From Moniliella sp. 'wahieum' (lineage: Eukaryota; Basidiomycota; Moniliellomycetes; Moniliellales; Moniliellaceae): a DNA stretch of 64,000 bases. Shown piece after piece: positions 20,426 through 57,338 of this stretch (positions are counted from its first letter, which is position 1; each line of letters starts with the position of its first letter). The notes below the pieces were generated by a model, which had not been told where the DNA came from, made no database searches, and saw only the letters and a program-made list of their open reading frames with translations. The stretch covers positions 186,001 to 250,000 of the forward strand of contig RSEE01000081.1 in the NCBI GenBank assembly GCA_003971905.1, written 5' to 3'. A program made the translations under genes and the position numbers.

Positions 20426-20453
20426 ATCGATGATCGATGATTAATGATTAAAT
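20426..20453. repeat. Heptad array of ATCGAT and ATTAAT palindromes
   Basis: Four consecutive 7-bp units read ATCGATG, ATCGATG, ATTAATG and ATTAAAT. The first three each contain a 6-bp palindrome plus one base, and the palindrome changes from ATCGAT to ATTAAT without loss of phase. Confidence 0.85.
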
Positions 20454-20470
20454 GATTGCGGGTGGGTGGT

Positions 20471-20517
20471 GCTTGAAGCTTGAAGCTTGGAGCTTGAAGC
20501 TTGAAGCTAGCTTGAAG
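20471..20517. repeat. AAGCTTG heptad array
   Basis: About six GAAGCTT-type units with minor variants (GGAGCTT, GAAGCTAGC). It follows the ATCGAT array by 17 bp, upstream of SEM1. Confidence 0.85.
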
Positions 20518-22097
20518 GGTCGATGATCGCCCGATCGGCCAATTGGCCAAAACGCACCACAGCGCCTCGCACTTGGCCAGTCTGGCAGGCAGCAAGCATA
20601 ATGCATCAATGCATCAACCATGCAATGACGATGCCCCCCACCACCGCCTAATCCGTCTCGACCATCTTGTTTCCTAGGCAGGGTGGTCGACGCACGCACA
20701 GGAGACGGTTGAACGTGATACTGTCCTCCCCCTTCGCCCGCGCACCGCAGCAGGCGCAGGCGCAGGGCACGGGGGGTATACGTGCGACGAGTACGAGGTT
20801 GTTATGGAAGGCTAGTCTGCGGGTGGATTCTGAGATTGAGATGTGAAAGCGCACCGACTTCGTGATCCGCGTCGATGTTGCGGGCCCGGGTACCCCGTCA
20901 TGCATCATGGCCAACATCCAACGTGGCATCCTGTGCACCTCGACGCACGGTGTCGGGTGTGAGGCATGTGAGGCCTGAGGAGCGGAGACTTGCGTTTGGC
21001 TGGTGGACCAAGGCTACTCCAGAGGAAGAGCTGTATGTGGACCGAACCACGTTCCACCCGATTCCCTGGTGGGAGAAGGGTTTGGCCAGGAGTATGAGCC
21101 ACAGTATGCCCACTATAGGTCGGTTGCGTGACGTGCACGGTTTGTCTTTTTGCGTTCGTGATGCTATGTCGTGTTACCGGTTTTGTTAGCCACCATTTCT
21201 TCCTTCTGTCTTATTTCTTTTATGTTCATGTCGCGTCTTACTCCCCGGCAGGGGGCTTGCTTTTCCCCTCGTTGCATGTCATTCATGATTACTATTTACA
21301 GGCGGTCTGCTGTGCCTTTCACTCTTTCCCTCCTCGACGGCGACTACTGTTGTGCAAACACGAATGCAGGACGTAGCTGCATGGGTACGCTAATCGTAGC
21401 CAATCCGGTCCCATGCAACTGGGGCATAACAGACGAGGAGACCAGACCTACCGTGGGTAGCAGTTTTGCGTGTTTTGGCCTTCCTCACGTACGAGGAAGG
21501 AATAGGGAATGGGGAAAGGGGGGGGGGGGGGAGTGACAGAGGGGAGGATGAGGGGCGGCACGGTGAGAGAGCATGAGGTGGACTGGTTGGAAATAAGTAA
21601 AACAAAAAAAAATGAGACCGAGTGACTCCCGTGCAGAGTAGGTGCAAGTGCAAGTATGTGCAGGTGCACGAGCAGGGCGAAGCGCAAGCCAGGCGCGCAG
21701 GGCGGCGGGGGGGGGGGGGAGAGAAAAGAAAGAGAGGAAAGTACACACGTAGAACGTGGAACGTTCCACCACGGTCCAGGAGCCTCCCAAATGCAGACCA
21801 AGACCAAGACCAAGACCAAGACCAACACCAACACCAAAGCCAAAGCCAAAGCCAAGCGACGAGGAAGAACGAAGCTACCGGCTCCACGGGTCGGCCAAAC
21901 GCAACGAGCGAAGGACGATGGGGCGGGAGCCGATCTTGGTCGGAGTCAGAGTCTAGGTCGGGGTCGGGGTCAGGGTCTGGGTCCTGGGACGGCAAGCGAG
22001 GCGCACAGGAGGCGGGGGGAGGTACATCCCCTCGACCTTTCTCCACCTCCATGCTTTCCCGCGTAGGTCCTCCCCCTCCCTACTTCCGTCCCTGTCC
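20518..22097. other. Gene-free interval with simple repeats
   Basis: About 1.6 kb without a convincing gene. It holds a G-run at about 21520-21530, six-base arrays (CAAGAC type at about 21797-21825, CCAAAG near 21835-21855) and a GTCGGG-type array near 21957-21985. Several long open frames over these repeats are compositional artefacts. Confidence 0.45.
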
Positions 22098-23849
22098 CTA
22101 TCCACGTCCCCATCCATGTTTCCAATCCACGTTCCCATCATGTTTCCATCCACGTCCCATCCGGACCGACGCGCTTCTGCCTGCCGCGGTCATCGATCCC
22201 GATCCGTTTGCACTTGCATTTGCATTTGGGTTTGCATTTGTGGTTGGGGTGCGGTCGCGACGGGAGAGAAGATGGGTGGGAGGGACCGTCCCCGCCGCCG
22301 CTCGAGCCATGGGGCGCCCAAGAGTGGCGATGGGATTGGAGTGAGCTGAGCGTGTGTGTGTTGGGGTGTGAGGGTGGGGTCGATGGGGCGGGTGTTGGTC
22401 TTGGACTTGGCATTGGTTGTCGCCGGTGGCCACGTCGACACTCGCTCGTCGGTCCGGACTTGGTCGCTGATGGTACTGACGGTACCCACGGCAGCCACGG
22501 CAGCCACAGTAGCTACGTCGACACTTGCCGTCGGTCGGGTCCACACGAAATTCGCGACGCCGTTTTGCGGCGGCGCAGCCCTGGAATGAGTCAGGACAGA
22601 CCACGGTGGTTAGACGGATACGAGGCGCACATTCAACCAAGTAAACCAAAAACCAACAGCACCAAGCACCAAGCACCAAGCACCAGCACCAAGCACCAAG
22701 CAGCACGAACCTAACACCAAGCAGCAAGCCAACCGTGGCGAAGGCGAGACGGAGACAGGAGGCTAACTAACAAACATACCTTGACCAAAATATGACGGTT
22801 GAGCGCATCTTTGCGGGAAAAGGGTTTGTGGCACTCGGGGCACTCAAAGGGCAAGGTACCCAAATGTTTGCGGATGGCGGCGCAGGTCGTGGTTCCGGGC
22901 AAATGCCGCGCCGCACGAGACGCACTTGAACGGTCGCGGGGGAGCGGGGACAGGTGGCGCACGAGGTAGCGAGGTAGCGGCGGAGGACCAGCGGGGGAAG
23001 GTACGTGTACCCCACCAGGCACCTCGTCTATCTGGCCCCATGGCGCTGGGCGCGTCGGTCCATGTGCATAGGGTAGGGAGAGTGGGAAGCGTGGGGGGCA
23101 GCAGGCTGGTGAGGCAGCAGAGAAGAGCGCTCGTACGGCAACGCAGGTGGGGCGGGGAGGTGGGCAGGATGGGCAGGATGGGCAGGATGGCAGGATGGGC
23201 GGGGTGAGAGTAAGGGTCAGGGCTGGGGCCGGACAGACTGCTGCGCGTATAAGGCAGCGGGTAGGGAGGCATCGCACGGGGCGTATGCGGGGGGCATAAG
23301 AGCGTCTTCGTGCGCCCGGTCGCTCCCATGTGGCCGGGGGCGGTGAAGGGGCGGCGGGAGCAGCAGGCGCGGTAGTGGGGACGGGGTAGGGCGGGTGGGG
23401 CGCCCAATGGCCCGGCGCAGACACAAGCGAGGAGCGGCGATCGGAGGCAGGCGGGTCGTACGGGTGGTAAGCTTCGTACGCTTCGTATGCTTCGTACGCA
23501 CTGCCGCGGCGGGAGGAAGGGGCGGTGGTGGTGAGGGGAGGCAGACGGGGTCGCTCGCCAGTGAGGACGGCCGTGGGGCCAGAGAAGCTGGCGCGGGGGC
23601 CGAGGGGCGGGCGGAGATGGGAGGGGGGCAGGCTGCGTGGCTGGCCGACGGGAGGCGCGTGGGCAAGACCAAAGCCTGGACGATGGAGGGCAGGCGGCTG
23701 CGGTGGACGGCGGGGCGGTGGGCGAGAGGGAGCGGGAGCGGGCGCGGGCGGAGGCGGAGCGGGGCGGGGGGCAGCGGGGGCATGGACCGCGGCGCGTGGC
23801 TGCTGCTGGCTGCGGCCGACGGCGACAGCGGGGACGGCGCGGAGGACAT
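22098..23849 (-). CDS. C2H2 zinc-finger protein, probable transcription factor, frameshifted
   Basis: Two adjacent C2H2 fingers define it: FKCVSCGAAFARNHDLRRH followed at once by a second finger with FECPECHKPFSRKDALNRH. The spacing between them (IRKHLGTLP) fits tandem fungal C2H2 factors. A long Pro/Ser/Ala-rich disordered N-terminus precedes the fingers. Exon 1 ends after RHILVK at a GTATGT donor; an intron at 22581-22779 ends in CCAG, and exon 2 begins GCAAAKRRRE, a basic patch that could be a nuclear localisation signal. The rest is low-complexity, with Asn/Ala repeats, to a stop at 22098. The start at 23849 is the first ATG of the proline-rich frame. At least two frame slips are needed, one between the two finger cores. 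Nuclear DNA binding is inferred from the fingers; no target is suggested. Confidence 0.7.
22660..22700. repeat. CACCAAG heptad array
   Basis: Five exact CACCAAG units and one 6-base variant, located inside the intron of the C2H2 gene. The period is 7 bp, but the unit is not palindromic. Confidence 0.85.
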
Positions 23850-24394
23850 GGCGGGAGCAAGGCGTGGGTGGGTTGGGCAGAACAGACAGATGGGTTACTG
23901 GGCCCTGGAAGGCGGTCGGAAGTCCTGGAGCACACCAACGCTGATCCAGCGCTTAGTAGTCCACCTGCCCAGACGCGAGGACAGAGCACGTTGGGCAGCT
24001 AGCTCGGCTGTTTCTTGCACCCGCCATCGCCAGCCAGCGCCTCAGCCTCGCCACCCGCCCCCCGCACGGGGTACTGCACCCTACATCACACACCTCCCTC
24101 ACCATCACCATCGCCATCACCATCACCATCGCCGCCCCCCGCTGCGTCCCCCCACGTCCCCTTGCCAGCCGCCCCACCCCCGCCCAGCTGGTAGGATCAC
24201 ATGCACCCCCAGGCTGAGGCGCTGAGGGCCTGAGCCTCAGGCCTGAGGCGGCCATGCCCCTCGGTTCACACACTGGGCCATCCAGTGCATTTTGCCACCC
24301 TCCCCCACATGGATCTGCATCACAATCATATCAACAACACACCAGCGGTACACAGCAGCACGCCCCTCATCCATCATCCATCGGTGTCTCCCTT

Positions 24395-24415
24395 GGGCCT
24401 TAGGCCTTAGGCCTT
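24395..24415. repeat. AGGCCTT heptad array
   Basis: Three units (GGGCCTT, AGGCCTT, AGGCCTT), each of the last two being the palindrome AGGCCT plus T, in the gap between the C2H2 gene and VPS55. Confidence 0.8.
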
Positions 24416-24900
24416 GCTGCTGCTACAAGATGCAGATAGCCACAATCCAGGAGCATGTGACACTGTGACATGTGGTGGGCCACGAGTGGGCCACACAGTA
24501 CAAGGCAAACGCTAAGCACCTTGTAGCACTGGGCACTTGGCACGTATATTCCAGCAGCTCAGCCTGAGTGCCCACCTGGACCCCCAGCGCCAAGACAGCT
24601 GCACCCGTGCTGGTGCTGCCCGAGCATCTCCTAGCGCATGTCAAATTGTCAAACGTCAAGCCCACCTCTCGAAACCATCTGCTGCCGCGTAGTGCCGCGC
24701 TGATGCCCTCGCCGAACGGCTCGGCCTCAGGTCCTCAGGCTGAGGCCTCACCTCACTATTCAGTCCGGTTCCGTTCCACTTGAAGCTTGACGAGCTTGAC
24801 GCTTGACTAGTGGAAGTTCAATCCAGGAACCTCTCCCTGATGCACACTGTCTAGTACTGGCTCCTTTTTCCTTCTGCCAGACGGATGGGCCTGCCGGATC

Positions 24901-24942
24901 AACGAGGAACGAGCAACGAGCAACGAACAACAATAAACGATT
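24901..24942. repeat. AACGAGC heptad array
   Basis: Six consecutive 7-bp units: AACGAGG, AACGAGC, AACGAGC, AACGAAC, AACAATA and AACGATT. The unit is not palindromic and decays towards the right end. Confidence 0.8.
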
Positions 24943-24983
24943 CACGTTCACAGCTCCACCATGGGCCATACGACTGACCTGCC

Positions 24984-25022
24984 ATCTAAGATCTAAGATC
25001 TAAGATCTAAGATCTAAGATCT
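24984..25022. repeat. AGATCTA heptad array
   Basis: Five exact ATCTAAG units plus a partial one; read in register, this is the palindrome AGATCT plus A. With 24395-24415, 24901-24942 and 25444-25471, it makes four different heptad arrays within 1.1 kb. The remainder of 23850-25482 holds CACCAT-type hexamers near 24098-24130 and no supported gene. Confidence 0.9.
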
Positions 25023-25443
25023 CCATAGATGTAGCCTTGGGTTGAAGAATGCCATGTATACTGTGGCTCAACAAGAACCGTGGTGCGCGGATGGCGCTGT
25101 GGAATGCACGTACCCCGCACCGCGAACGTCCCACTGCATGGTCCCGAACATCGAGCGCCCCAAGCGGGGCTAAAGCTGAAGCTTGAAGGATTAATATTTA
25201 ATGACCGACCGGAAGGGACCTTAAGCCAGACCAGAGGGACCAGAGGAGTCGGAGGAGATCGGAGGGATTGGAGGGATTGGAGGGAGTCGGAGGGGATTGG
25301 AGGTAAAGTGCACCGGCAACCCAGTGGGTTTAGTTGAGCCACCTCCCCCCCGCGGCCACCGGCCTTTCGCAGCAGGTTGATAAGGAGGATTGGTTGTGCT
25401 GGTGCCGGTCGGGCCAGGCTCACATCCCAGACCTCTCTCATCC

Positions 25444-25471
25444 CCCACCTCCCACCTCCCACCTCCCACCT
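25444..25471. repeat. CCCACCT heptad array
   Basis: Four exact CCCACCT units immediately downstream of the VPS55 stop codon. The unit is not palindromic. Confidence 0.9.
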
Positions 25472-25482
25472 GGGAGAACGGA

Positions 25483-26196
25483 TCAGAAGGCAAACGAAGG
25501 ATCCTCCTCCTCGGCAAAAAACGCATGGTAAGTGACCATGGTGGAATACACCAGGGCGCCACCTACGATGGCCATGGCGCATGCGGAGGTTGAGAGGAGG
25601 GCAGCATGAGCCAAGGCCAAAGGGAGGGCGATGCCACTGACGAGCATGATGGCTGTGAGAAAGTTGCCGAGGTCACAAAGGCCGTGTTGTAGTCTGCTGA
25701 GTAATCGTCGTGCCCAGCCAAGCGGGAACAGAGCGAGTTGGGGATCGGGGCGAGGACGAAAAGTAGTGCTGTACCCATGCAGAGAAGGGAGTGGGATTGG
25801 GGGGGTTAGTGTGTCGTACGGAGCTACTGAGCCCAGCGGAGAGAAAAGGTGGTCTGCGCATAGTTTCCTGATCCAAGTGCGAAAGCAGATGTACATATAG
25901 GACGCGGACAGTGAATGCAGGGAGGGGGAGGAGGGAGAGACGTACCAACCAAAAGGGGGTACCAGTTGGACCAAAGTGCACACGAAAGAATCAAGAGCAA
26001 AAACCCAAACGCCAAAACAAACGCGAGCCAGATAACCGCTGTCGACGACAACCCCGTTGGTTAGTACTTGGTACTTAGTACTTAGTCCAGATGCAAGATC
26101 CATCCTGGGACCCGGCTCGGGAGTCCTAGCCATTGGACAATAACCAATAGCCATTAGACATTGGACATTGGACATACTGCGAATCCCGGACGCCAT
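25483..26196 (-). CDS. VPS55: Vacuolar protein sorting protein Vps55 (LEPROT family)
   Basis: Small four-helix endosomal membrane protein that acts with Vps68 in late-endosome to vacuole traffic. Three exons can be assembled. Exon 1 (26196-26178) encodes MASGIR and ends at GTATGT. Exon 2 (26038-25946) encodes TVIWLAFVLAFGFLLLILSCALWSNWYPLLV and ends at GTACGT. Exon 3 (25768-25483) encodes LLFVLAPIPNSLCSR, then DLGNFLTAIMLVSGIALPLALAHA and a last helix before the acidic end EEEDPSFAF. Phases agree at both junctions. One T is missing near 25678, where TTTTGTGAC would give FCDLGNF. Four hydrophobic helices and the LSCALW, LAPIPN, SGIALP and LAHA motifs match the family, as does the length of about 130 residues. 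Intron 1 itself contains two heptad arrays. Confidence 0.93.
   Translation of the reverse strand: MASGIRSMSNVQCLMAIGYCPMARTPEPGPRMDLASGLSTKYQVLTNGVVVDSGYLARVCFGVWVFALDSFVCTLVQLVPPFGWYVSPSSPSLHSLSASYMYICFRTWIRKLCADHLFSPLGSVAPYDTLTPPIPLPSLHGYSTTFRPRPDPQLALFPLGWARRLLSRLQHGLCDLGNFLTAIMLVSGIALPLALAHAALLSTSACAMAIVGGALVYSTMVTYHAFFAEEEDPSFAF
26063..26083. repeat. AGTACTT heptad array inside VPS55 intron 1
   Basis: Three units (AGTACTT, GGTACTT, AGTACTT). The AGTACT palindrome plus T repeats with a period of 7. A second array (CATTAGA, CATTGGA, CATTGGA) lies at 26152-26172 in the same intron. Confidence 0.8.
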
Positions 26197-26721
26197 CGTG
26201 CCAAAATCAAAGGTGTCCACGACACGAGCAAAGCCAGCACGGTGGAGTTCCAACAACAACGGCCGCCAGAGCGAGCGAGCAAGCAAGCCAGGGAGAGGGT
26301 GAATGGTTGAACGTTGATGGGCTGCCCGGCCAGATGGCGCTCGTAATCGTAATCGATAATCGACGTAATCGCTGAGCTGGACAACGCCACTGCGCGCTTA
26401 CTTCAGCACCGTCGTACTCCTCGACGCGGGTTAAATTGAATTGTTCAGGAGCTGCTATCATCACCACTGTTACTTGGCCCCTCGCGATTAAAATTGGTGC
26501 CAACGATCTTGTGAGATCTGGCTCGATTTCAGAGTGCGGCGACTGCATCCCCGAAACTGGGACCGAATTGGCTGAGACGACGCTCAGCTGGAACCGCGCC
26601 CGCACCATGCACCATGCAACACACAACGCCACTAAGCGCCCAATAGGGGACCCGGGACGTCGTCCTACTCTCTTTGGTTCTCTTGTTGGTATTGCTCGCT
26701 TGCCACCTTCTCACCACTGCT

Positions 26722-26750
26722 CTTGAAGCTTGAAGCTCAAAGCTTGACGA
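26722..26750. repeat. AAGCTTG array upstream of the AhpC/TSA_2 gene
   Basis: CTTGAAGCTTGAAGCT, then CAAAGCTTGACGAG, about 45-70 bp before the start codon at 26793. It lies within the probable promoter or leader. Confidence 0.75.
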
Positions 26751-26792
26751 GCCAAGCCTCTTCGTTGGTTGAGATCCATCCTCGGCACCACC

Positions 26793-27505
26793 ATGGCCAC
26801 CATTTGGAACGCGATCTGGAGCTTGATCCCACAAGGTTCTCCTGTCCCGCACGCGGTACCTCAAGTGGGGAACAAGCGCCGCCGCACCCTGTGCTGAATG
26901 GCAAGCCTACCATTATCGCTTTCCCGCGGCACTGCGGGTGTCCCTTTGCTCAAAAGGAGGTCTTGACCCTCGGCGAGCTGACCAAAACGTACAAGGACAA
27001 GGATAAGGACTTGCATGTGATCATCGTCCAGCACTCGCCCCAAGACGTTACCCAGCAATGGTTCGATGCAATTGGGTACGTTCCCCCCCCCCTCTCTCCC
27101 GCTTTGCACCTTGCCTTTTCCCCCTCTTTTCTCCCCCCGCTCCCTCTCACCGAAACAGGTGCACTAACGCTACGCCCTACGCCTATGTGGAACGAATAGC
27201 GGTCCCGCTGCGTTCGGCGATGCTTCGCGGTACACGTTACTGTCCGATCCTTCGCGGGAGCTTTATGCGCTGTGGGGGGTGGGTACGTTAGGATGGACGT
27301 CGCTGTTGGATCGCGGGGCGTTGGGTAAGATTTCGCAGTTGGCCAAGGAGAATATTTCGGTCACTACGTTTGCTGGGTCGTACCGCTGGCAAAATTCAGG
27401 TGGGTTGCAGTGACGGAGCAAGGTACGGTAGCTTGGTGTCATATCGCAACCACTGCGAGCGATATGTGCGATTACGAAGCGGCGGCAAAGAGTTTGTTCG
27501 AGTGA
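26793..27505 (+). CDS. AhpC/TSA_2 (PRXL2-like) thioredoxin-fold redox protein, frameshifted
   Basis: Member of the AhpC-TSA_2 family of thioredoxin-fold proteins related to peroxiredoxin-like 2. After a short N-terminus (MATIWNAIWSLIPQG), the core opens with KPTIIAFPRHCGCPFAQKEVLTLGEL. The Cys in CGCPF is the predicted redox residue; the second Cys of the usual CPFC motif is Ala here. HVIIVQHSP follows, an intron at 27076-27199 (GTACGT..ATAG) joins AIG to GPAAFGDASRYTLLSD, then ELYALWGVG, SVTTFAGSYRWQNSG and GTVAWCHIATTASD, the typical end of the family. Two one-base slips are needed, near 26870 and 27405. The ATG has an ACCACC context. Function beyond a likely peroxidase or reductase role is not known. 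Confidence 0.8.
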
Positions 27506-28403
27506 TTCAAATGGGGAGATAAGGTGGTGTAGGGCCCGCGGGGGGGGGAGCAGAGCGGGTTCCTGTTCCCTTTCCTATGTCGTATGTTGTGCGAGTGAAG
27601 GTGCTTATATACCTGCAAAGAGCAGGAGGTGCGAACATGGGTTGTTACGACGTATGGTCGATGATATATGATGCAGGATGCAGGAAGGCGGCGAAAGAGA
27701 GAGGTATAGGCACGTGAAGCAGGTGGCAAAGTAAAGACAGAACGCCGACCTGAGCGCTGAGCCTGAGCAGAGAAGGGCAACCGTTACTCAGTTCGTCAAT
27801 GACGTTCAAGATTACCATTGGTATGCACCACGTTTTTCACGTGTTGGAACAAAGTTGTCTGGCGACGGTGCTCTCTGTTTCGGTAACGATGTATCATGAA
27901 CCACGGGGCCCGACAGACGTGCCATCATTGATGATATGTGACAGCCTACTGTATTTATCTGGAGCCTGTCCCCACGGCTCTCCTTCGTGATGCTTGCACT
28001 CCTACTAGAGCCATCGATTCGGGGTACCCTGATCAGACCTACTCACCCGACTGGCATCGCTGCGGCTATATAATGTTTCCCCTCCACGCCGTAGCCACCC
28101 CTTCGCCCTGAGGTAGGCTTAACCAACCGAACCTCCGTTTTTCACCGAGAGGGGATGTTATATCAAGAGAAACGTAAGCCAAGATACCGTCTCATCTTCT
28201 TTTGCACTGCCCCCCCCCCCCCCCTCGCTCTCCGAGGGCAGGCCCAGATCATGCACATTGGCATTGGGTTCTCGGTGTTTCCTTCCAGTCCTCGTATGGA
28301 GCAAACGATCGCTACAAAGGAAATAGAGGGCACAGGGAGACTGAGTAGTGATGAAGTCGATGAAGCTTGAAGGAGATACGCGGTGCCGAAATGATTGATG
28401 ATA
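27506..28403. other. Gene-free interval after the AhpC/TSA_2 gene
   Basis: No supported gene. It contains a C15 run near 28211 and short palindromic words. The interval continues through the large inverted array at 28404-28553. Confidence 0.4.
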
Positions 28404-28553
28404 CTTGAAGCTTGAAGCTTGAAGCTTGAAGCTTGAAGCTTGAAGCTTGAAGCTTGAAGCTTGACAATCGACAAGATTCCGCTGTCCCTCAGGCCTCCTC
28501 TCATCCGCCAGATCTAAGAAAACTTCAAGCTTCAAGCTTCAAGCTTCAAGCTT
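28404..28553. repeat. Inverted pair of (GAAGCTT)n arrays
   Basis: The left arm at 28404-28463 is about 8.5 perfect copies of a 7-bp GAAGCTT unit (AAGCTT plus G). The right arm at 28522-28553 is about 4.5 copies of its reverse complement, AAGCTTC. A 58-bp spacer containing AGATCT separates them. The arms could pair into a stem of about 30 bp, and each unit is itself palindromic. Confidence 0.95.
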
Positions 28554-30982
28554 TAAGGGCTTCAAAACATGCTCTCAGAACTCCGCCATCTGCTCCACCT
28601 GGAGAGCATGCCGGATGGACCGACATGATATTGAACGTCCTGGGATCCTGAGAGCCACAGGTCTCAGGCTGAGCGCTAAGGCCGGTTCAGGGGGACTCAC
28701 TGATGCGTCCCACACATGCATCATCACGCATCGTCAACGACCGTTTGGTTCGGGCCCTCAGGAATGGTAAGAAATGGTATGATCAGTATATCAGTGCGCT
28801 GAATTGTTGGGATGACGGTCATCCTCCGCATCTTGGCGTTGTTCTTCCCACGCGTCTTCGGGCCAACATGGCGTTGCTCGCGAATCCTATAATTAAGTGG
28901 TGGGTGTGTTGTGCCTGCATATGTGGCGCCTCCCTTTTTTGACGGAGGTGTCAACGTGTCAGCCACAGCGAGTTGCACGTTGCTGGTTTGTCCGATTGGG
29001 CCTTTCAGGTCCTCAAGTCCCAGGGGGGGAGAGTGGGCGGGGGGGGATAGGTCGACTAGAGGACGACTTGAAGAAAAACTTGAGGTCGTTACTCGTAGTA
29101 TAGTACTTCATTGTTACCGTGGGATGATGGATGACGGATGAGTGTGGGTGGGACCGAGTGTAGATGGCTAACACACATCAGTATGGAGAGAGGCGTTTAG
29201 GCGTGGCTGAGAACTGAACCTGAGGACCGAGTTCAGTGCGGCGGGATATAGTCCTGTTGAGTATATACTGCAGAGTACTGAGAGTATATACTGAACCGTC
29301 GACGGCAGAGCTTTTCCTAGACCTAATCGACCCCACTGGGCACGAGAATGCACACATCCACAGCGAATGGAGAAGCGCCGACAGTCTGTCTGGCGTTGAT
29401 GTCCAGTAGCTAGGAGCGACGGACAGCAGGACGCAACGCAGTCGTTGGCGTGTGTACCACGAGTCTATACACGCAGTGCGGCGCACTTGTCCAGTCATTC
29501 GATCCTCGATCAATAGCGATCATCGATCCCCGATCTTGTCCAGATCGATCTCGATCAGATCTTGCGCCGCCATGGCGCATGGGGGCATTGTGCGGGGGCG
29601 TACTGGGGTGCATATGCGAGCCATGCCAGCCTGCTCCCTCGGCCTCGCCAGCGCTGCGGGTCGCATGCAGTCGTGTATATACTTGGCTGCAGCGCGGCAT
29701 TACGCGGTACGCGTTGCGCCGACGCGGTATATGCGTCGCATGTTACATGTTACAGCCGCCCGCACTGGGCCAGTCTTGTTGCTCCCCAAAGGCCAGGCAC
29801 GCACGGAGTGTACAGAGCAGAGGGCTAGCATAGCAGGCATAGCTGCCACTCTGCACCCCAGCGAGCGACCACACCCGCCTCCAACGCCACTGCCTTCTTG
29901 TCTGCTGGCCCTCCACCACACCTCTCGCTGGCAGCAGAGCATCCACCTGTCCCTGCCACCACAGCCACTGCCCCTGTCACTGCCACCCCCTTCTCTCTGC
30001 ACAGCGTGTATACGCGTCTCGCTCCACACACTCCTCCCTTTCTTTCTCCACCCTCCACCCCTCTCTGCCATTGGCTTGTCCGCACATCCTCTCCAGGGGG
30101 ACCACTCGGTCCTCTGCTTCTTCCTCTACCTGAACGCTCGCCACACAAACACACCACCCGATCCTCCTTCAGCTTAGTACAGCCTCGCTTTCCATCCTAT
30201 TTTGGCCATCAGCACCAACAAAACCCTTCAGCCATTCCACCCGCCCCCTCTTTCCCATTTCTTTTCTCTTCTAAGCAGCCGATGACGTTCTGCATCCCCC
30301 CCCCGCCGGGTCTCGTCCCTACGACTCCCATTCCCACATCGAACCACCGTCCGTGTGCCCTTTCGCTTTCTCCCCACCCAACGCCTCGTTTTCCCTGTCG
30401 TCTGCGTCTGTGTTCTTTTTGCACCCGATTCTCTGTGATCAAGAGCTCTCGTCGCCCCTTTTTGCCAGCAACACGCGAACGCACCAGCGTCTCTTCTGTT
30501 GCCCAGGCTCTTTATTTACCCCTCCATTGTCCAATGACCCACTAAGTTCCTACATCCCCAGCTTTAGACCTTCCGTGAGTGTCGTTTCTGGCCCCCGAAG
30601 CGCATCCATTCTTTCATCTCGTGTGTTGCGCTGGCCTGACCATGTATCTTCACACCACAGGATATCGTTAAGGTCGTTTCGCTCGACATTGTACAACGCG
30701 TCTTTCTGTCGTTGTACCTTGCTTGAGCATAACACTATTATTCCAGCACTTGCTTTGCTCTTTACATTTCCGCTTCATCCTTTTGCCTTGCTTTACTCCT
30801 ACAAGCAATTGTGTCCGTTACTTTACTTTTCCGTATCTCCTATACCCTTTTGGTATAGAACCCCTCTGTTCCATTTCTTTTTGGCGTCCGGTAACGTTAC
30901 GCCTCCCTCGTGGCATTCCCTCCTTTCCGTCCCTCCGTCTCCCATACTCCCAACAACATTATCAAACAACTAAGAACCTGTC
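28554..30982. other. Long 5' region of the photoreceptor gene
   Basis: About 2.4 kb without a supported gene. It includes GATC/ATCGAT-rich sequence at 29500-29565, ACATGTT units at 29739-29754 and AGTACT-containing words near 29270-29295. From about 29860 to 30980 the plus strand is strongly C/T-rich with few purine blocks. That could be a long transcribed leader of the WC-1 gene; the open frames there look compositional. Confidence 0.45.
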
Positions 30983-34563: not shown

Positions 34564-34569
34564 AATAAA
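34564..34569 (+). terminator. Candidate polyadenylation signal of the photoreceptor gene
   Basis: AATAAA about 375 bp after the proposed stop codon. Motif only; the distance is long but possible. Confidence 0.3.
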
Positions 34570-34680: not shown

Positions 34681-36368
34681 ACAAAGAGTGCCCTCTCGGA
34701 GTATATAGCAGAAGAGACGGCTGTAATGAATATGGCGAGGCTTCTTCTGCACCGCAGCTTAGGCAGTAAACTTGACGTATCTGAAGCCTCCAGGGCTTTT
34801 CGCTGAGACGGGAAAGTGCACTGCCATCCAGAGCTGTAATATAGTAATACTGGACCGGGACGGGCTTCGGTGTGGTTGGAACGGGACTCTGCGTCCGGAG
34901 ATAACAGGAGCGCCCTGTACCCTTGTCCTCTATCCTGTTCTTATATCTCTCTCTTTCCTACATGCAGAAAGCAGCCAGATGTTACACGTGTTACATGTTA
35001 CACCGGATTTGAACTGCATCCGTTCATGTTCACACATTCACCTGGCAACAGCCAGGGTGGTTCGGGGAAAAGCCGATTAGAAAATGGTAGAGCTGTGCCG
35101 GACTATATAGACATCTACTAAGTACTAATATGGGACCGTGACGAACTAGTACAAAGAGGTTCTATCCGCTGTGAAGATATGACTTGTTGTCAAAGATCTG
35201 TCGATACGGGTTGATCGACATCGTATATCTCTGATCGATCCTGTGCGCGCTGCGCCCTGACGCATCGCGTGACTATGTCTGTGCCTCTGACATCTGAGAT
35301 TGAGATACGAGAAGACGCGCACCAGGGGCTGCAGCTCCGCGGTGGTGGTGGTGGTGGACCCACCGAATCATACTGTTCATGTTGTATCGAGGGTTATTGT
35401 TAGCAGCAGTAATCGGTAACCGGTAACTTCTAATAGGTTCTAGCAACCGGTTTTGCCGATGCTATATGGCCCGAGCTACGTTCCCTTGGCGTTAGTCCTA
35501 TTAGATTTCTGCCACAAACTAAACGTACAAAGGTCCCGTCACGCGTCACATCACATGCACATGTTACTTGCACACGTCACGTCACGTGCACCCGCGCCGG
35601 CCACCTTGGCCACCCATTGTGCGGGCCCGGTCGGAACCACCGTCCTACGTCAGTAATACTACACTCGGTAGTCAGTACGAGCATCTGGACTTCCGACCCC
35701 ACTGCACGCGAGGCAGGCTAGGCCTCAGGCCGGGACCTACCCCGAGCAAGCCGGACCCTCATCGATCATCCGTGCAGGCCCGCCCACGCTCTCTTCTGCC
35801 CCCGTCCCTTCAGGCACACACCTGTCCCTATACCTCACTCATCGATCATCCCACTGCGCCTCACGCCCCACGTGCAGCTATTACTCGTGGCGCCCAGCGC
35901 CTTCTCTCTGCACCGGGCCTTCTCTTTTTCCGCCACACGACTGGAGCCCCTTCTGCTACCCCTGCACACCACACCCCACGCAGACACAGATGAGACGGTA
36001 TATAGTAGTGAGTACTGAGTGGGTAACGCTCGACCAGCAGACACTTTTCCCGGCGGCGGTCAGTACTATACCCAGTACTCAGTGGTCCGTACTGAGACTC
36101 AATACTCACTATATTGGGTTGGTTTGTTCCATCTCAATCAGGAGTGACTGGAATGACTGTGTATGATACATCATGCTGACAAGAGTATGACTCATGCAAG
36201 CTAGCTTGAAGCTTGGCTGGCGTTATATAGAGCTTAGTACCCACGACGGGCGCCTTTTTGGAACCCTTGGCGCGTATTACATGTTACAGTGCCTCAAACA
36301 ATAACCCCCTGGTAAAAGGGTTTCTCAGCCGCCGCCTTGTTCAGCCTCGACGTCTCAGTGCTCAGCCT

Positions 36369-36500: not shown

Positions 36501-36521
36501 AACCGGTAACCAGTAACCGGT
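36501..36521. repeat. ACCGGTA heptad array
   Basis: Three units (ACCGGTA, ACCAGTA, ACCGGTA). The same family occurs at 449-478, 35412-35427, 43978-43991 (ACCGGTG) and 51120-51133 (ACCGGTC). Confidence 0.85.
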
Positions 36522-42011: not shown

Positions 42012-44105
42012 GGGGGCAGAGGCGGGGCGGGGGGGAGGGGGGCGGTGGTGGTGGTGGTGGTGGTGGCAGGAGCAGAAGAAGAAGGCGCGCGGTGTGGGAG
42101 CCATGAGGGCTGAGGTGAATGGGGCGGCTGGGGCGGCATGGAGCTCAGGGGCGTCGGCGTCATACTGATTGCGGGTGCGGCGGAGGGGTGTTGGATGTAC
42201 TTACACGGTATAATGGGTCTGACAGGTGTCTGACGAGTGACTGCGGATGCATGATGCTTGTTGCCGCGCCCCAGAGTTGGCGGCTGCGCGGAGCTCTGCT
42301 GCGCCGCTGTGCCCCTGGCAGGCGGCACAGGGGCCGCGCGGGCACAACCAACACCGGCACCACGGCCCACTCACGCGTCACGCGTCACGAGTCACTTGCT
42401 AAGTAATCGTCCTAGTCGCCGTCCCTACCGCCTCCCCAGCTGCCCCCCAGCGCGCCTTGTCCAGGCGCAGCGCCCTCCCTTCGTACATCCGCGCTCCGCT
42501 CCGCTCAGCCGGCCGCAGTCGTTTGGCGCGGCTCGCCGTCGCACAGCAGAAACTGGCCACTCCAACCCTCTTCGTCTCCGCCATGAACCAAGTTTCGTGT
42601 GGGCTCGCCCACACTCGGCAGAAAAGGCATGCTGTCCGGCGCACAGCAGAGCCCATCAAGCGCAATGTGCGTACACAGCGCGCCCCTGCTTTCTTCGTTT
42701 GCTTTTTGGTATGTACTTAGCAGTAAATGTGGTGTAGTTGTGGAACCACCACCATCATCGACGTCATCCCACGTGCCCCCGTTCGCCAATCGCGATCTGT
42801 AGTACCAAAATAGTGGCCAGTTGAACATAGTGCACGAAACAGATGGTCAGGCTGTTCGGATCCATACTCTCACATTACCCAGAACGCGCCTTATACCCTT
42901 TCAGGGCGATTGCACGCCCAGGCATTTCCCGCGGGTACAAGATTCCCGCCAATGTTACAACACAGGTATTGGTTGTGCAGTCAAACCTATATGGGGTTGA
43001 TGAACTCTCTCTTCATCAAAAGCCCTGGGGCGCATACTTCGCTTCGCTCAGGAGCACACCACGTGTGCATTCCACGGTACTGCATGGCATGAGGTACGAG
43101 ACTGTCCCCTGGAGACATCAATAAACGTACTGACGACACAGAAGCTTGAATCTGTGCCTTCCCTCCTCGGTGTTATCGGTAATGGTGTCAGTCACCTCTC
43201 AGATCTCAGCCTCGACAGGCAAAGTTGTCTTCGTCATCTGTTCGATCAGGCCACACGTTACAGTTTGGAAGGGGGGTGCTTGACGGACATTGACTTTTGT
43301 CGCGAGGACGAGTGAAAGAGCACAATTTGCGCGGGTCCGGGCTCTATAGAAAAGAGTTTATAATAGTTGGCGTATAAGCAACACATCCGGATGAACGGGT
43401 CAGTTTAGTTTAGGTGCAGCGTTTCGTGGTCCCAGCCTTAAGCTTTGGTCAATGATATATGTGGTTACAGAATAAAAGGCCCACATATAGATGGACGAAG
43501 AGGGTTTAAACACGTTAAACGTTAAACGTGAATGATAATGATTACTCTCGCGGCGTGGCATAGCCCATCTATTGACAAAATGCGTCCACAGCAGGAGTCA
43601 TCTTGAGTCCAACCGTTGATCTTCCATCCTATCGGCCACGAAAAGGAACTCGCTCTTACGCTCCTTCCGCGTGGAGCCTCGAGACCATGGCCAGGCGTCT
43701 CTGTTGCTCTCTCGCTCTCCGTCGCGGCGGTCTACAGATGAAAAGGTCAGTGATATTATCATCGCCGTGCCGTCGAGTTTGGGAGCATATCAATGGTAAT
43801 CCCCTTCTCTCTCTCATTTCTCCTTCTCTTCAGACGTTGCTTGAAGACTTGTGGCTCACCACTTTGCCTTCACGCCTTGTCTGAAGCCTGCTTTGCAGCT
43901 GATCCATAGGACCGCCAGTGCTCCCAAGTCGCACTCTAGCACACTGCTCCATATTTCAACAGCAACAACCAAGGGTGACCGGTGACCGGTGATGCCCAAT
44001 GCGTGGCTGCGACCAGCGGTGATGCTTAGGTCAGCCCCGCGCCGCGTATAGGTCCACCCACGATCCACTGAGCCAGTCCCATTGCCGAGTCCAACCACCC
44101 CCGCC
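42012..44105. other. Promoter side of PYK and gene-poor interval
   Basis: No supported gene over about 2.1 kb. It has a CCACCA-rich run at 42040-42065, AACGTTA heptads at 43511-43531 and ACCGGTG heptads at 43978-43991. A plus-strand stretch at 43619-43797 is open and protein-like in one frame (with RSPSRRSTDEKVSDIII) and ends near a good GT..CAG pair (43797-43834). It could be an exon of an unrecognised gene, but I cannot extend it. Confidence 0.4.
43511..43531. repeat. AACGTTA heptad array
   Basis: Three 7-bp units (CACGTTA, AACGTTA, AACGTGA); the centre is the palindrome AACGTT plus A. The same word family is at 63020-63057. Confidence 0.8.
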
Positions 44106-46210: not shown

Positions 46211-46260
46211 GCGCACGCGCATCAGAGCCAACTGGTGTTGGTTCCACCTGTGGACCGTAG

Positions 46261-50411: not shown

Positions 50412-50841
50412 AGGAATGTAGTTCTCTCTCTATGCGAGTCCTTCGGACACGAAGAAAATCTTCATCTTCCTTCTGTTATTTGATTCGTTTGCACTGTGGT
50501 CACCGGAGAGTGCACCGTGGTCACCACTACTTCACTTGCTGCCACTGGGGATAGCGTACGTGGCCTTGGATACTAGCTTCACTGGCCACTCTCCGGCTTT
50601 AAGCGCTGTACTAATTGGGCATTCTATTGTGCGCGCTACTGTGGCGCGGGAAGAGCGAATGGCAATAGTCAATAGCAACTGGACAACTGCTTGCGATAAG
50701 CGCTACGCCCAAGCTCATAATGCTCCCTTTTCAAGACACACTTCTCCGCGCATCAAGCATCAAGCTCATCAAGCTTCAAGCTAGGTACGCCCTGGAGGAA
50801 GAAAGCGTGCCGAGCTACAATAATGAGCTAGTGAAAAAAGC

Positions 50842-50869
50842 GGTGCGGGGTGCGGGGTGTGGGGTGCGG
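50842..50869. repeat. GGTGCGG heptad array
   Basis: Four units (GGTGCGG, GGTGCGG, GGTGTGG, GGTGCGG) upstream of the XDH gene. The surrounding gap (50412-51522) also has AAGCTTCA words at about 50755-50782, ACCGGTC units at 51120-51133 and no supported gene. Confidence 0.85.
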
Positions 50870-51522
50870 GGGTGGCGCGCGCTGGCGATCGCCGAAAAGA
50901 CCAATAGATCGTTGGGCGTTGGGAGGCGTTGGGACGCGCATGGACCCCTGCGAAAACAGTTCGCACCGGCGAAGGGATGATTGATGTCACCGTGCTACTC
51001 TGCCCTGCTCTACCCTACTCAGCCACACGGAGTCACCGCGGCCGCCGTGCTCGCCCCATTGCGTATCGCCATGCGTTCGATGAGTCGCTGAGAGATCGAT
51101 GAGGGTCCGATCGGTGGTCACCGGTCACCGGTCGGCCAGCCAGGTTGGTCTGTGCTGTAGCTGCGTTCCACCGGTTTCCACCGTGTGGATTCTGGCGCCA
51201 GGCCGATGGGGGGCCAGGAGGGGGCTCCGTGCCGGCGGCCATGCAGCGTGCTGAGAAGAACGCTGGTGCTGGGGCGTCCTGGGGCGCGCGGGATGCGGCG
51301 CTGGCGAGCATGGTCCCCTCCCCCTCTGCGCGTAGCCACCAGCTGCCCCCGCAGCGGCGGCACCGTGTCTCTCCATTGCCCGCCAGCCCAGCGGGATGCA
51401 CGGACCATGTGTTTTGCACCGGGCCTCCGCCGAGATATATTCCGGCCAGAAACCGCCAGCTGTAGCCTGCGCACGACATCCCCCCCCCGCTCTCTCTTAC
51501 TCTGCACGTCCTGACTTCCACC

Positions 51523-53020: not shown

Positions 53021-53209
53021 CAGCCAAGGGGGCATGGTCAAAGTGGATCGCTCAGGGACGATTTTGAATCTACTCACTGGTCAGTGCTCATCTTGGTCCT
53101 GCAGTGGCGTCGACAGCAGTGGGAGCTGCTAAGTCCTAGCCTTTAGGTGCGCGGGGCATATGGCAAGAATGAATTGATTTTGCGAGAATGAGAGGGTTGC
53201 TGTGGCTCC

Positions 53210-55067
53210 TTAAGCTCGTTGTAGTATGCAAATGCTCTGGGCATGGCTGTAATAGACTGGTTAGTCGAATTCATCGAGTGTGGAAGAGGAGAGACGTACC
53301 GGGTCTGCGGGAACAAGTCAGCAGCACGCAGGGAGAAGAAGGTGTAGGCTGGGTCGTGGCTGAGGAGGTAGCCAACGTCCCGAGCTTGGGCATGAATGCT
53401 GGCCGACACATAGATGACCAGTCTGGGGCGTAGCTTGAGCAGTCCTTCGAGGAAATCGTCATCGCAGCCACGCCGTGGGGGGGTAATCACTACCGTCGTC
53501 GAGTCGGGCTTAAAACTGTCGATGCGGGGCGAATGGAAATCTCCTGAGCCGGGCCCACGTGGAAACTCACTTCGCCCAAGTCGTTAGCCATTGCGCTATG
53601 CACTGCGCATTTGACGGCTCTAGGCGAAAATTCTACCCCACCACTTGCTTGAACATGGAGGCTAACGACAATGCAAACAGTCCCGGGCCACAGTAAGCGT
53701 CAATCAGGTACTGTGGCTGGACTCGCTGGTCCGCAGGAAGAGTGGACGCCAACGCACAATCTCGTGGCGTAGGTACTCGACAAAGGGGAGCAACATGGAA
53801 CGATTGGCCGGGAAAGAGTCATAGGCTGGGCCATGGACCCAGATGCTTCCGACTTTCTCGTACGTGATATCATTCTTCAAGTCGGTCAGCACTTGGGACC
53901 CATCGGTTCTTCTTGCGAAAGCGATTTCGAATCTTGGGGGTCAACGAATCGCGAAGCATTAACGGCTTTCCGGTGAGACGGAGATGGACGGTTTGCCGAG
54001 CCTCTTCGCGTACGATTGGCAAACGGTTGTTGATCGCGTCAGTGGCAACAGGACAAGCATCGATATCCAATAGTTGGCCGTCATCCCATTGAATCCAATG
54101 GGGCAGGGGTCAGGATCGGGTGGGGGGATCACAGGTTTGGATAGGTCCAAAGGCGTGTGGGTCAACTTGGCATGAAGTTTTTCCTCTTTCTGCCACTGCC
54201 GCACCACGGCAGGAACGACGAAGTGAACCTCCAGTTTGGTGCGATAGCCATATTGCTTTGGAGAAGGTAGCGTTTCGGCTGCGGGCGGGACAAGCGCAGG
54301 GTTCAACCCACTATAATTAGCGAATGCCGTGTCGACAGCATGGCGTTTCAGTTCGAGCTGTTGTGGATAGGACAACATCTGGTACTGACATCCACCGCAG
54401 GAGTGAAAGACCTCACAAGGAGGTGTCTGTGTCCGCATCTTGGATGGTACCAAGATTTGCTCGATGATAGCCACAGAGTGCATCTCCAAATTAAAGGTGA
54501 CCCGCACCATCAGCTCGTCCCGGGCAACGATTTAGGAACAAGGATGGCCCAATCATCATGCCCCGGATCGCGCGCCACGCCCATTCCGATGGTGGTGATT
54601 CTTTCGACTTTTACCCGAAGGATACTTCCGATGGGGTACACAAACTCAGTAGTTGTGCCCTTGGCCTTGCGTCGTTCCACCGCCTCTGGCCCCAAGAACT
54701 GATGCACCTCCAATATGCTTGGGTCCACAGCAAAGGCCTTGGCCCTCTTAACCGAGGCCTGTAATGCGGGTCGTCTACTAGGTTCCGGAGGAGTCAAAGG
54801 GGGCAAAGGGATGTCTTTGCGAGGAGTACCTGTGGGAACACCCACAAGTTGCATGGCGTCCAGACGATGCCCAGAGAAGGGCGAGTGGGTTTGGCGGCCC
54901 GGTTGGCGCCGGAGCACACGGGAGGCTAATTTGCTCTTATCGGGGAGCGGATGCGCTGAAGAAAGGGATGAGGAGGAGGAGGAGGAGGAGGAAGATGATG
55001 AGCATAATGCGCGGGCTTGACCCACCATGTGGGCCGGAAGAGCAGCCAATGCGCGACCGCTCGTCAT
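53210..55067 (-). CDS. Trm2-like tRNA (uracil-54-C5) methyltransferase with altered catalytic motifs, frameshifted
   Basis: Related to Trm2/TrmA m5U54 tRNA methyltransferases. The start at 55067 opens MTSGRALAALPAH and a poly-Ser run. Then come a TRAM-like basic beta domain (GSILRVKVERITTIGMG), CGGCQYQMLSYPQQLELKRHAV, YGYRTKLEVHF and the SAM-binding DAYCGPGLFALSLA. An intron at 53247-53299 (GTACGT..ACAG) splits DLFPQTR from HAQSICILQRA and the stop at 53210. Family motifs are otherwise degenerate. The usual FFQxN reads SFPAN, the IDPPR motif reads ITPPR, the SCNP nucleophile motif reads SASI, and the RHVE base motif reads RHAQ. These changes are in frame and are not explained by single indels. 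A non-catalytic role is inferred. Frame slips occur near 54505, 54090, 53890 and 53690, so the changes should be confirmed on better sequence. Confidence 0.85.
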
Positions 55068-55622
55068 TCCAAAGATGTTGGCGTGGAGAACAGCGAAGAG
55101 GCTCCGCTCCCTCCAGACAGGAAAAGGGTCTAACTCCGCCCCAGAGCGGAATCACTATTTATCCCGCGTTTGGTCGTGGAGGAGGCTCAGCCTGAGCCTC
55201 AGCCAGAGAGCATTGCGTATTTTTTTGTACTACACCCATGTGGATCCGCTAACAACCTACTTGGCGGCGTTCACGGGAGGGGTTGGAGGAACCACACGCG
55301 ATGACGTCTCAGTCTGTGGCGAAAGTGGTATGAGTAGTAGGGCCGCCGAACCAGGAGGAGCTAGGTTTCTTTCTCGGCATCTCGTTCATCCACCTGCAAC
55401 GAAGCTGGCGGGGCGTTGGTGTCATCACGGACTACCATTGGGCACATTGACGTCCTAAGGGATAACTTCATTCGCCTTTGGCTTCCAATCATGAAAAGCA
55501 TACACTCTTCCCTCCATGTACACGGGGTGGATAAGGATAGCTGCAGTGAGATTACCCGTCATACTCGCTGATGCTGTCCACTTTAGACCATATTAAACAC
55601 GTGGTAGAAGGGCTGGAACAAT

Positions 55623-57224
55623 TCATTCACTCGCCGGCTTACTGTTGTCACTGGGACGGAGGAAGAGGCGGGAAACCGGCGGCCGACTGGGTGCGTTGAA
55701 TCGCATCACGAATCGCTTCGTTGACCGAGGCGGCGGCTTGGACACCAATGCATGGCCTCCATTCTCAACCCAAACAGGAGTGGCATGGCGCATGACCGAA
55801 ATGAGGTGGCGAGAGTTGTTTGCGTTGACCATATGGTCCCAAGTCCCGCTGATGACCGTCAGTCGCGAAACGCCGCCGGACGACAACGATTCGTCAATGG
55901 CTTGAAGGACCGAGGTCTTGACCTGGTGAGTCTGCGTCGATGAGATTGCCGCGATAGCCGCTACAGCATCAGGGCTTGGCTGAAGCCGAGCCATCACGGC
56001 GGCCCGCCAGAGCGCCACAGCATTCCAGTATGTCCAATTGGAAGTACTCTCCTCTCCTTCGGGGCCGTGCCAAAGATCTTCCTCTCTCACACCCTTTTGA
56101 CGGAGTGCCTTATTGTTGCGATTAGTGTTTCAGAGGGGGTACGGTTTAACCACTCGGGCGGGTACAGCACCTTGTTTGCGCGCTCCACCCGACTCATGGG
56201 CGTGTCACGCCCAAAATTGACTGCACGATCGAAATGGCCACCATCGCAACCCCCTTAAGAGGAGGCAATCCGGTACTAAGCTTCTTCACTGCATGGCTGG
56301 GATCCACAACAGCAGGCAAAAGTTCAACTGCTTGCACATCTGCCGCATATAGCGCGTGACCCGAAGTCGTAGAGATCAGGCATGCGGACGCTGCGACTGT
56401 TGATTCTCCCTGTACCAGGGTAATCCGGAGCAGTTCCAAGAGGATCATGCCCCCCATGGAGACTCCGGCAAATGGACCTTTTGGGAGGCGGGGGAAAAGC
56501 TGAAAGATTCGCTGGCAGGGGCAGGAGGGAGCCAGCCAACCCTTCGAAGAAAGTAGCATCAGCACGTCTTGCGCCATGAGGGTCGTCCTAGACCATGTCA
56601 GTCTGATGCAAAGTAAAAAAGGAATATGAAGAGAACATACGTATACCGCCCTCCTGGCGCCTCGGAATTGCCCCAGCCACGGTTGTCAAAGACGAGGACC
56701 GAGTACGTTTCTGGATGGCGCATGAAAACTCGACTGGGGATGTCTGTCAGATACGATGCATGGATCTCAAGGGGAAAGATAACGCACTCTGAGGAAGCCA
56801 TGCCACATGGCTTATATTCATTCCCATAATAAGGCAGATGTGCACAGGTCCATGGCCATGAATCTCATAGTACAAGCCCACCGTCTCGCCCGTAGTGATC
56901 TGTTTCGCCCCCCACAAAAAGGAGGACCAAGGCGTGATGTAAAGCGGGATGCGTGCAACCCCACGGGCGGTCCGGGTTGCCGGATTCAACAGCGAAGGAA
57001 GCACGGTCCACTCGCCTTTGCCACCGGCAGGCGTGGGGGGCAGCTCCTGGGCCCCCTCAGGGCGAGGCAGGGGCAGACCCATGACCGGAGCCGTGAATGA
57101 CGATTGGCGCAGGACAGGCTGGCTGTCCCACATGTCACGGAGGATATCGTCGTAGCTGGCACCTAGGTAGGCTGCGCCAGGCGGCGTCGGCCCGTTGAGC
57201 ACGTCCGTCGTCCAGTCGGCCATG
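55623..57224 (-). CDS. Alpha/beta-hydrolase fold protein, frameshifted
   Basis: Alpha/beta hydrolase of unknown substrate. From the ATG at 57224 (MADWTTDVLNG) there is an N-terminal region of about 100 residues, then GLYYEIHGHGPVHICLIMG with the oxyanion-loop HG, and VLVFDNRGWGNSEAPGGRY. An intron at 56588-56640 (GTATGT..CTAG) leads to MAQDVLMLLSS, the nucleophile elbow GVSMGGMI, and the late catalytic residues in VISGTWDHMV and ENGGHAL. The family order Ser-Asp-His is complete. Two or more slips are needed, one near 56740 and one near 56100. An upstream in-frame ATG at 57352 would add residues encoded by a heptad array (57301-57335), so I prefer 57224. Cytosolic location is assumed; no signal peptide is evident. 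Confidence 0.82.
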
Positions 57225-57300
57225 GTGAGGAGGATGGGTGGTGGTACGAAACTGGCGTTGTGTGAAAGCGCCAGGACTCCGAAACGCTGAAGATTGAATG

Positions 57301-57338
57301 ATCGATGGTCGACGGTCGGTGGTCGGTGATCGATGATC
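57301..57338. repeat. ATCGATG/GTCGACG heptad array
   Basis: Five consecutive 7-bp units (ATCGATG, GTCGACG, GTCGGTG, GTCGGTG, ATCGATG), then ATC. Two palindromes, ATCGAT and GTCGAC, alternate within one phase. It sits in the leader region of the hydrolase gene. Confidence 0.88.

Follow-up and report, generated by a model that had tools for sequence, protein, structure and literature searches.

Why should a tandem repeat keep strictly to a step of seven base pairs when its sequence is left largely free? The question is posed by a stretch of 64,000 nucleotides from the basidiomycete Moniliella sp. 'wahieum' (C81:186001-250000, contig RSEE01000081.1; the whole stretch is referred to below as the window), for which an initial annotation, made from the letters alone, had drawn attention to period-7 arrays in gaps and introns, had described many of their units as a 6-bp palindrome of the form A-NNNN-T plus one base, and had suggested templated duplication, hairpin-primed slippage or a protein that measures 7 bp as their source. 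The phenomenon is real and is stricter than first described, and the palindromic part is the key to it: the palindromic arrays reduce almost wholly to a T-X-A, a 4-bp palindrome and a second T-X-A with the identical X. Throughout, X denotes the free middle base of T-X-A, n1n2 and n3n4 the dinucleotides that flank it on the 5' and 3' sides, and a prime the complement.

A four-base palindrome between two copies of T-X-A

Unless otherwise stated, counts refer to a main sample of 314 kb, comprising the window together with 25 ten-kb stretches (L009-L033) of the same genome, the assembly of which amounts to 69.5 Mb in 223 contigs. Six of the 25 loci (L009-L013 and L015) were picked near matches to AAGCTTG and are accordingly richer in the sites described here (1.57 sites/kb). 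Arrays were located using Tandem Repeats Finder together with a scan for perfect runs, duplications being called perfect from a length of at least 14 bp, and the background for all T-X-A pair counts was order-3 Markov sequence. Arrays were found at the places initially noted, to within about 10 bp, those at 36501, 36404 and 57301 being present but imperfect (76-87% matches).

The sample contains 230 perfect period-7 duplications, of which 129 reach the maximum self-complementarity open to a 7-mer, against about 43 when the letters of the same units are shuffled. The outer pair is A..T in 123 of these 129, much as had been proposed, and T..A, C..G or G..C in the rest (3, 2 and 1 respectively). 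At periods 5, 6 and 8-10 no excess of self-complementarity was seen; duplications at the neighbouring periods number 194 at 6, 49 at 8 and 62 at 9. The remaining 101 period-7 duplications are non-palindromic, are not clearly more frequent than duplications at adjacent periods and resemble ordinary microsatellites, so that the initial inclusion of such arrays in one process does not hold and they are better set apart as a separate class. An excess of autocorrelation at lag 7, which had been offered as a check, was only partly seen in the window, where lag 7 (0.2766) exceeds lags 5, 8 and 10 but falls below lag 6 (0.2887), a lag that carries codon periodicity.

For the palindromic class, chance is excluded as a source. 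T-X-A pairs with the same X and 7 bp apart occur 634 times against 132 in the Markov sequence, and those with a palindromic interior 358 times against 8.5, with other cores far below this; with different X the figures are 49 against 22. Odd-centred palindromes are strongly enriched only around T-X-A (117 against 10 for an arm of 6, compared with 21 against 10 for A-X-T), and the enrichment ends at arm 7, the point where X meets X. Usage of X follows that of background T-X-A sites (C 76, G 71, A 19, T 17). The initial annotation had counted at least 11 of the 16 possible inner palindromes; all 16 are in fact seen among isolated doublets, AG and TC being favoured and TT, AA, TA, CC and GC under-used. 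Over the whole genome AAGCTTGAAGCTTG occurs 2819 times and its letters reversed 0 times, while ACTCAGTACTCA, one of the words in which the palindrome matches the 5' flank, occurs 1021 times against 5 reversed. The 64 possible 12-mers of this 5'-flank type together occur 433 times in the sample (12 of the 64 being absent), against 4 occurrences reversed and 4 with an A-X-T core.

Outside doublets neither NNTXANN palindromes (726 against 707) nor ANNNNT palindromes (768 against 752) are in excess, which suggests that a doublet arises in a single step; an existing self-pairing unit as the driver, which the initial annotation had favoured, finds no footing here. In the window, none of the 68 pairs of T-X-A around a palindrome, which represent 50 separate sites, lies in the 9.0 kb of eight long open reading frames (chosen by size and apparent identity rather than as curated genes), all of them falling within the remaining 55 kb. 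Every one of the 19 loci sampled without regard to repeats holds a site or more, with a range of 1 to 22 per 10 kb and a mean density of 0.70 sites/kb, the window having 0.78; extrapolated to the assembly (0.70 x 69.5 Mb), with both genome copies counted, this gives roughly 49,000 such insertions, referred to below as scars.

The source of the inner bases

When the 358 palindromic doublets are compared with their flanks, 101 match the 3' side only (n3n4n4'n3'), 88 the 5' side only (n2'n1'n1n2), 122 both and 47 neither, giving 311 matches in all, as would be looked for in a flank-derived footprint of the hAT kind. Five other cores, counted alike, gave 2 to 11 one-sided matches each, and among isolated cases assignable to one flank without ambiguity T-X-A has 89, while none of the other core letter pairs among the 16 exceeds 13. 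For the 19 loci picked independently of repeats the corresponding figures are 44, 45, 46 and 25 of 160. Ten chains carry two different palindromes, and in these the left palindrome fits the left flank in 8 of 10 and the right palindrome the right flank in 8 of 10, for which the probability by chance is about 1e-8. The four inner bases are thus taken from either flank about equally often, T and A being fixed and X and the flanks nearly free.

Neither plain duplications (n3n4n1n2) nor mosaics are in excess at T-X-A: isolated simple duplications number 9 and mosaics 1 and 1, with 64 further isolated T-X-A sites fitting several classes, and simple ones at other cores number 6 to 40. A scheme of 7-bp duplication with junction mosaics was dropped, given that unambiguous sites alone leave whole-left or whole-right palindromes; an earlier count that had suggested mosaics had put ambiguous sites into one class.

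Two explanations may be judged at this point. The first takes the four bases as what an excised transposon left behind, namely a 3-bp TNA duplication together with 2 bp from each of its terminal inverted repeats. A direct T-X-A repeat around an inverted repeat is indeed a transposon in its minimal form, and 3-bp TNA duplications exist in elements of the NuwaII/PIF type (PMC4482050); however, the four bases track the flanks in 311 of 358 cases, using all 16 dinucleotides, and not any fixed element ends, and we consider this account very improbable. The second, slippage of the ordinary microsatellite type or an error of assembly, suits the non-palindromic 7-bp arrays, but slippage needs a plain duplication as its first step and obeys no sequence rule, which is not what is found at T-X-A; for the palindromic class it is refuted by the flank rule and the genome-wide word counts, the core specificity and the presence of scars in both genome copies arguing the same way, and can be given hardly any credence.

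The most direct view of the elementary event comes from a second copy of the region. Window positions 24000-29800 are collinear with C107:163782-170560, and the comparison made use of 23 kb, in pieces, from a 29-kb collinear stretch, C107:158200-187500; aligned blocks are mostly 84-95% identical (about 90%), and the two copies may be separated haplotypes or the outcome of a hybrid origin. The elementary difference between them is n1n2-TXA-n3n4 as opposed to n1n2-TXA-[n3n4n4'n3' or n2'n1'n1n2]-TXA-n3n4, that is, 7 bases. Arrays differ by whole units, for instance by 49 bp at 28404 and by 14 bp both at 24984 and at the non-palindromic 25459, with further differences of 7 bp at 26511 and 29739 and of 35 bp at 24211. 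This last is a cluster of imperfect TGA units (24211-24245) with AGGC on either side, which is wholly missing from C107. At 26510 an empty allele TG-TGA-GA faces TG-TGA-GATC-TGA-GA, and empty alleles are found also at 20604 and 35715, with small extra changes close by, while other scars, such as those at 20896 and 27749, are common to both copies. A fixed 7-bp step with free sequence is therefore borne out by the comparison, and the idea of templated duplication was not far from the differences seen between the copies.

Individual loci in the window, with the state of the second copy where it was compared, are as follows.

28404..28464: (AAGCTTG)n, 8.7 units; second copy 1.7 units, difference 49 bp = 7 x 7
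28523..28553: (AAGCTTC)n; length differs in second copy
20417..20447 (array run 20424-20451): chain TGA-CCGG-TGA-TCGA-TGA-TCGA-TGA-TTAA-TGA; X constant, palindrome varies
20471..20508: (AAGCTTG)n, interrupted
24984..25022: (AGATCTA)n; 14 bp longer than second copy
24396..24415: (AGGCCTT)n; one unit more than second copy
26071..26086: (AGTACTT); one unit different from second copy
29739..29754: TG-TTA-CATG-TTA-CA; second copy single TG-TTG-CA
35117..35130: AC-TAA-GTAC-TAA-TA; empty allele AC-TAA-TA; palindrome from 5' flank
35757..35770: CC-TCA-TCGA-TCA-TC; empty allele CC-TCA-TC; palindrome from 3' flank
35837..35850: AC-TCA-TCGA-TCA-TC; second copy AC-TCA-GTAC-TCA-TC; same target AC-TCA-TC, opposite flank copied (by eye from the two alleles)
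36275..36288: TA-TTA-CATG-TTA-CA; empty allele TA-TTA-CA
2348..2389: ACTAGTC doublet and chain CT-TGA-AGCT-TGA-CTAG-TGA-CT; each palindrome fits its own flank
42371..42389: (ACGCGTC); second copy with an additional TCA-GTAC unit at the left end, fitting the left flank AC
43512..43529: (AACGTTA)
43974..43992: (ACCGGTG)
51116..51133: (ACCGGTC)
6451..6466: (ACTAGTC)
34989..35002: (ACATGTT)
25444..25471: (CCCACCT)4, non-palindromic ordinary microsatellite outside the class; 14 bp longer than second copy
22658..22729: (AGCACCA)n, non-palindromic ordinary period-7 microsatellite outside the class

Twenty-four one-unit 7-bp differences fall at T-X-A, not all of them independent in that some share one array; a palindrome is present in 21, and the flank rule is followed by 20 (3 left, 6 right, 11 both, with 1 palindromic but unmatched, 1 plain duplication and 2 others), as against 3 palindromic of 161 one-unit differences at the 15 other cores. 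Under strict calling of whole chains, 34 window sites gave 6 shared, 4 fully empty and 24 partial, complex or unaligned, and 41 second-copy sites gave 9 shared, 1 empty and 31 in the remaining categories, a total of 15 shared and 5 empty of 75. Most sites are thus too rearranged for a clean allele call, and it must be remembered that the 24 differences and the alleles aligned by eye form a favourable subset. The direction of change is probably a gain of 7 bp, although precise loss by recombination between T-X-A repeats would look alike; in either case the palindromes still report the flanks.

These alleles also bear on the hairpin-driven slippage of self-complementary 7-bp units put forward by the initial annotation, a process akin to CNG triplet expansion. 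Array units do fold, with one X-X mismatch per unit, the copies differ by whole units, and part of the array growth exceeds what insertion would give. However, expansion of the CNG kind needs a palindrome to be there first, and the empty alleles are palindrome-free, the inserted palindrome being copied from the flanking dinucleotide; slippage of this type would in addition allow outer pairs other than A..T, seen in only 6 of 129 cases, and periods of 5 and 9, where there is no excess. We regard it as improbable as the origin of the arrays, and as a helper at most. Taken as a whole, the initial interpretation is partly supported.

A proposed break with hairpin ends and its rivals

The scars are best read as those of a hairpin-type break or of transposon excision, of a kind, the P-nucleotide footprint, that is known. 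A specific version, namely a double-strand break at TNA whose hairpin-closed ends are reopened, as after excision of a cut-and-paste transposon, stands in our estimation about evenly between acceptance and doubt. The whole hairpin geometry that it calls for would be as follows. An enzyme would make the double-strand break in such a way that both ends keep n1n2TXAn3n4, a 7-bp duplication such as follows transposon insertion, and both ends would be closed as hairpins 2 bp outside TNA, a distance of 7 bp separating their tips on the original site. A nick in each hairpin, 2 nt from the tip and so placed that it falls immediately 5' of TNA on either strand (a 3-nt stagger), would then give two 4-nt self-complementary 3' overhangs of equal length, facing each other. 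If these were ligated as a mismatched bubble, with n3n4n4'n3' on one strand and n2'n1'n1n2 on the other, replication or mismatch repair would retain one strand, leaving one flank's palindrome whole and only rarely a mosaic; the step of 7 would be the sum of 4 and 3. A product of this kind would carry two T-X-A sites and be open to four possible next events, three of which would repeat the same palindrome, and arrays of one unit could then grow, helped by slippage. The likeliest agent would be a DNA transposon of the cut-and-paste type, or else a transposase that has been tamed, forming flank hairpins like those of RAG or hAT at a target centred on TNA. Hairpin opening 2 nt from the tip is the known behaviour of Artemis.

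Two parts of this geometry have precedents, each in a different known system. Excision of Ac/Ds in plants and yeast leaves flank-derived palindromic footprints by way of hairpin ends (PMC4561436), and 7-bp target duplications occur in basidiomycete transposons, in hAT7 of rusts and Kyakuja of Laccaria (PMC12730594); unlike the footprints of hAT elements, the scars here nearly always consist of one whole flank palindrome centred between bases, with T-N-A fixed and plain duplications missing. PIF/Harbinger elements share the T-N-A target, the free middle base and the 3-nt stagger, as seen in the T-N-A duplications of mPing (PMC4561436) and in NuwaII (PMC4482050), in keeping with the T-X-A repeated here with the same X; their excision, however, is generally precise, whereas flank palindromes are added here, and NuwaII prefers C-TNA-G, whereas all 16 flank dinucleotides are used here. 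For RAG/Transib, CACTA (CMCT) and the P nucleotides of V(D)J joining, opening of a flank hairpin at a point 2 nt from its tip would leave self-complementary overhangs of 4 nt, and the genome holds a tnp2 gene; the duplications given for RAG/Transib and CACTA in PMC12730594 are of 2-5 bp, unlike the 7 bp required.

The principal competitor is a fold-back during replication, in which the nascent strand would go 2 nt beyond TXA, turn on a displaced flap or sister strand, copy 3 nt reversed (n4'n3'T) and return at the T before X. It would yield the identical product with a 1-nt T microhomology and without any transposon, and template switching that makes palindromes from inverted copies of neighbouring bases is reported in rad27-delta yeast, the accessible part of that report (PMC5677150) describing no fixed core, length or step. 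Such a process should, however, act at G-X-C, C-X-G and A-X-T too, all of which are near background, and its arm length should vary, whereas enrichment is slight or lacking for inner palindromes of 2, 6 or 8 bp (39 against 38 at a T-X-A distance d of 5, 6 against 2.5 at d=9 and 6 against 0 at d=11, compared with the 358 against 8.5 at d=7). We think it unlikely, if less so than the other rivals considered.

Returning to the hairpin break, one may go further and suppose that a novel TNA-specific, hairpin-making cutting system, perhaps a tamed transposase without its element, wrote some 50,000 flank-templated 7-bp scars, their ends being joined as a mismatched 4-nt bubble; this we put forward only tentatively, as rather less probable than its opposite. 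No footprint of exactly this form was found in the open-access literature, searched by title and the start of the abstract, subscription papers lying outside the search. Whatever its agent, one rule of core, length and choice of flank ties an extrapolated tens of thousands of small insertions to a single reaction. The scars allow the places and the frequency of DNA cutting and rejoining to be read from the sequence, predict both nick positions and both hairpin tips ahead of the enzyme's discovery, account for period-7 arrays with different palindromes without special self-pairing, and serve as markers differing between two genome copies.

Evidence against the proposed hairpin break, and the search for its agent

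A number of observations, from the sequence statistics and from the search for an agent alike, weigh against the break with hairpin ends. Chains in which every inner word is palindromic comprise 183 doublets, 35 triplets, 7 quadruplets and 4 quintuplets, compared with 10,566 single T-X-A sites, so that a further event is commoner at a doublet than at a single site; unlike neighbours, at 10 of 81, are fewer than the 25% predicted (P = 0.004). The shortage of unlike neighbours, together with the fast lengthening of chains, implies that slippage or gene conversion helps growth; and since arrays are largely repeats of one event, the palindrome is a product and not a pre-existing self-pairing substrate. 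The geometry leaves unexplained that 276 of the 634 same-X pairs are non-palindromic, against about 124 in the control, and that same-X pairs are in excess also at distances 6, 8 and 9 (255, 239 and 271 against about 146, 141 and 145). Odd-centred inner palindromes are found at distances 6 and 8 (63 against 29 and 28 against 6.5), which would suit a less exact fold-back process. The 47 palindromes that fit neither flank, and the lack at T-X-A of the plain 7-bp duplications expected of simple excision repair, point the same way, and in Ac-type footprints the hairpin centre lies on a base rather than between bases. In locus L010 (3881-3920), CTTGAAG units are spaced by an additional AG, giving a period of 9, and the d=8 and d=9 classes are enriched; these units are perhaps scars with another hairpin-opening position.

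Eight DNA-transposase profiles and one for reverse transcriptase were searched against the whole genome. Reverse transcriptase gave 71 matches. No match was found in the genome for the hAT dimer domain or DUF659 (PF05699, PF04937), nor for Plavaka or KDZ, zeros that are weak and do not prove absence because the control genomes were silent for these four as well. MULE and DDE_3 (Tc1-type) also gave 0 matches in the whole genome, as did DDE_Tnp_4 (PF13359, PIF/Harbinger), for which 1 of 14 control genomes matched. The sole signal among the eight came from Transposase_21 (CACTA tnp2), with one match above the cut-off (C17:557095-557541, 52.6 bits) and one weak (C34:514908-515195). The open frame of the tnp2 piece is 331 aa long and matches Transposase_21 at 7.5e-14, and none of 1222 candidates in the protein database scored as a relative; this gene is the only candidate agent, and the duplications described for CACTA-type elements are short (2-5 bp; PMC12730594).

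Elements themselves were likewise sought. None with TNA-centred flanking repeats of 7 or 8 bp was found among the large between-copy insertions examined, a small sample; these show either an 8-bp duplication or none that is evident. The former is a 215-bp insertion in the second copy (L034, about 4596-4810; window 28278), with the 8-bp direct repeat TTCCTTCC and without obvious inverted ends. A related element of 550-590 bp seems to be inserted at two places in the second copy in opposite orientation (L034, about 5260-5808; L038, about 904-1496), with ends CCCTA..TCAC and ACAAG.., and by eye without inverted ends or a clear target duplication. Candidate elements with terminal inverted repeats and TXA or NNTXANN duplications in the sample were set aside, the matches consisting for the most part of the arrays or of isolated weak pairs, and repeat families in the sample, used as empty-site tests, gave alignments with gaps of only 1-5 bases.

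As to other features of the window, a methionine aminopeptidase 2 gene lies at 58118-59266 on the minus strand. Its product is 81% and 91% identical to two other proteins, and 70-72% identical to the counterparts in Pseudozyma flocculosa, Violaceomyces, Thecaphora and Tilletiaria; by this one protein the fungus would probably belong to the Ustilaginomycotina. An Rfam scan gave a single tRNA and nothing else. The period-15 tandem repeat noted initially was recovered at 4475-4543, with 4.6 copies.

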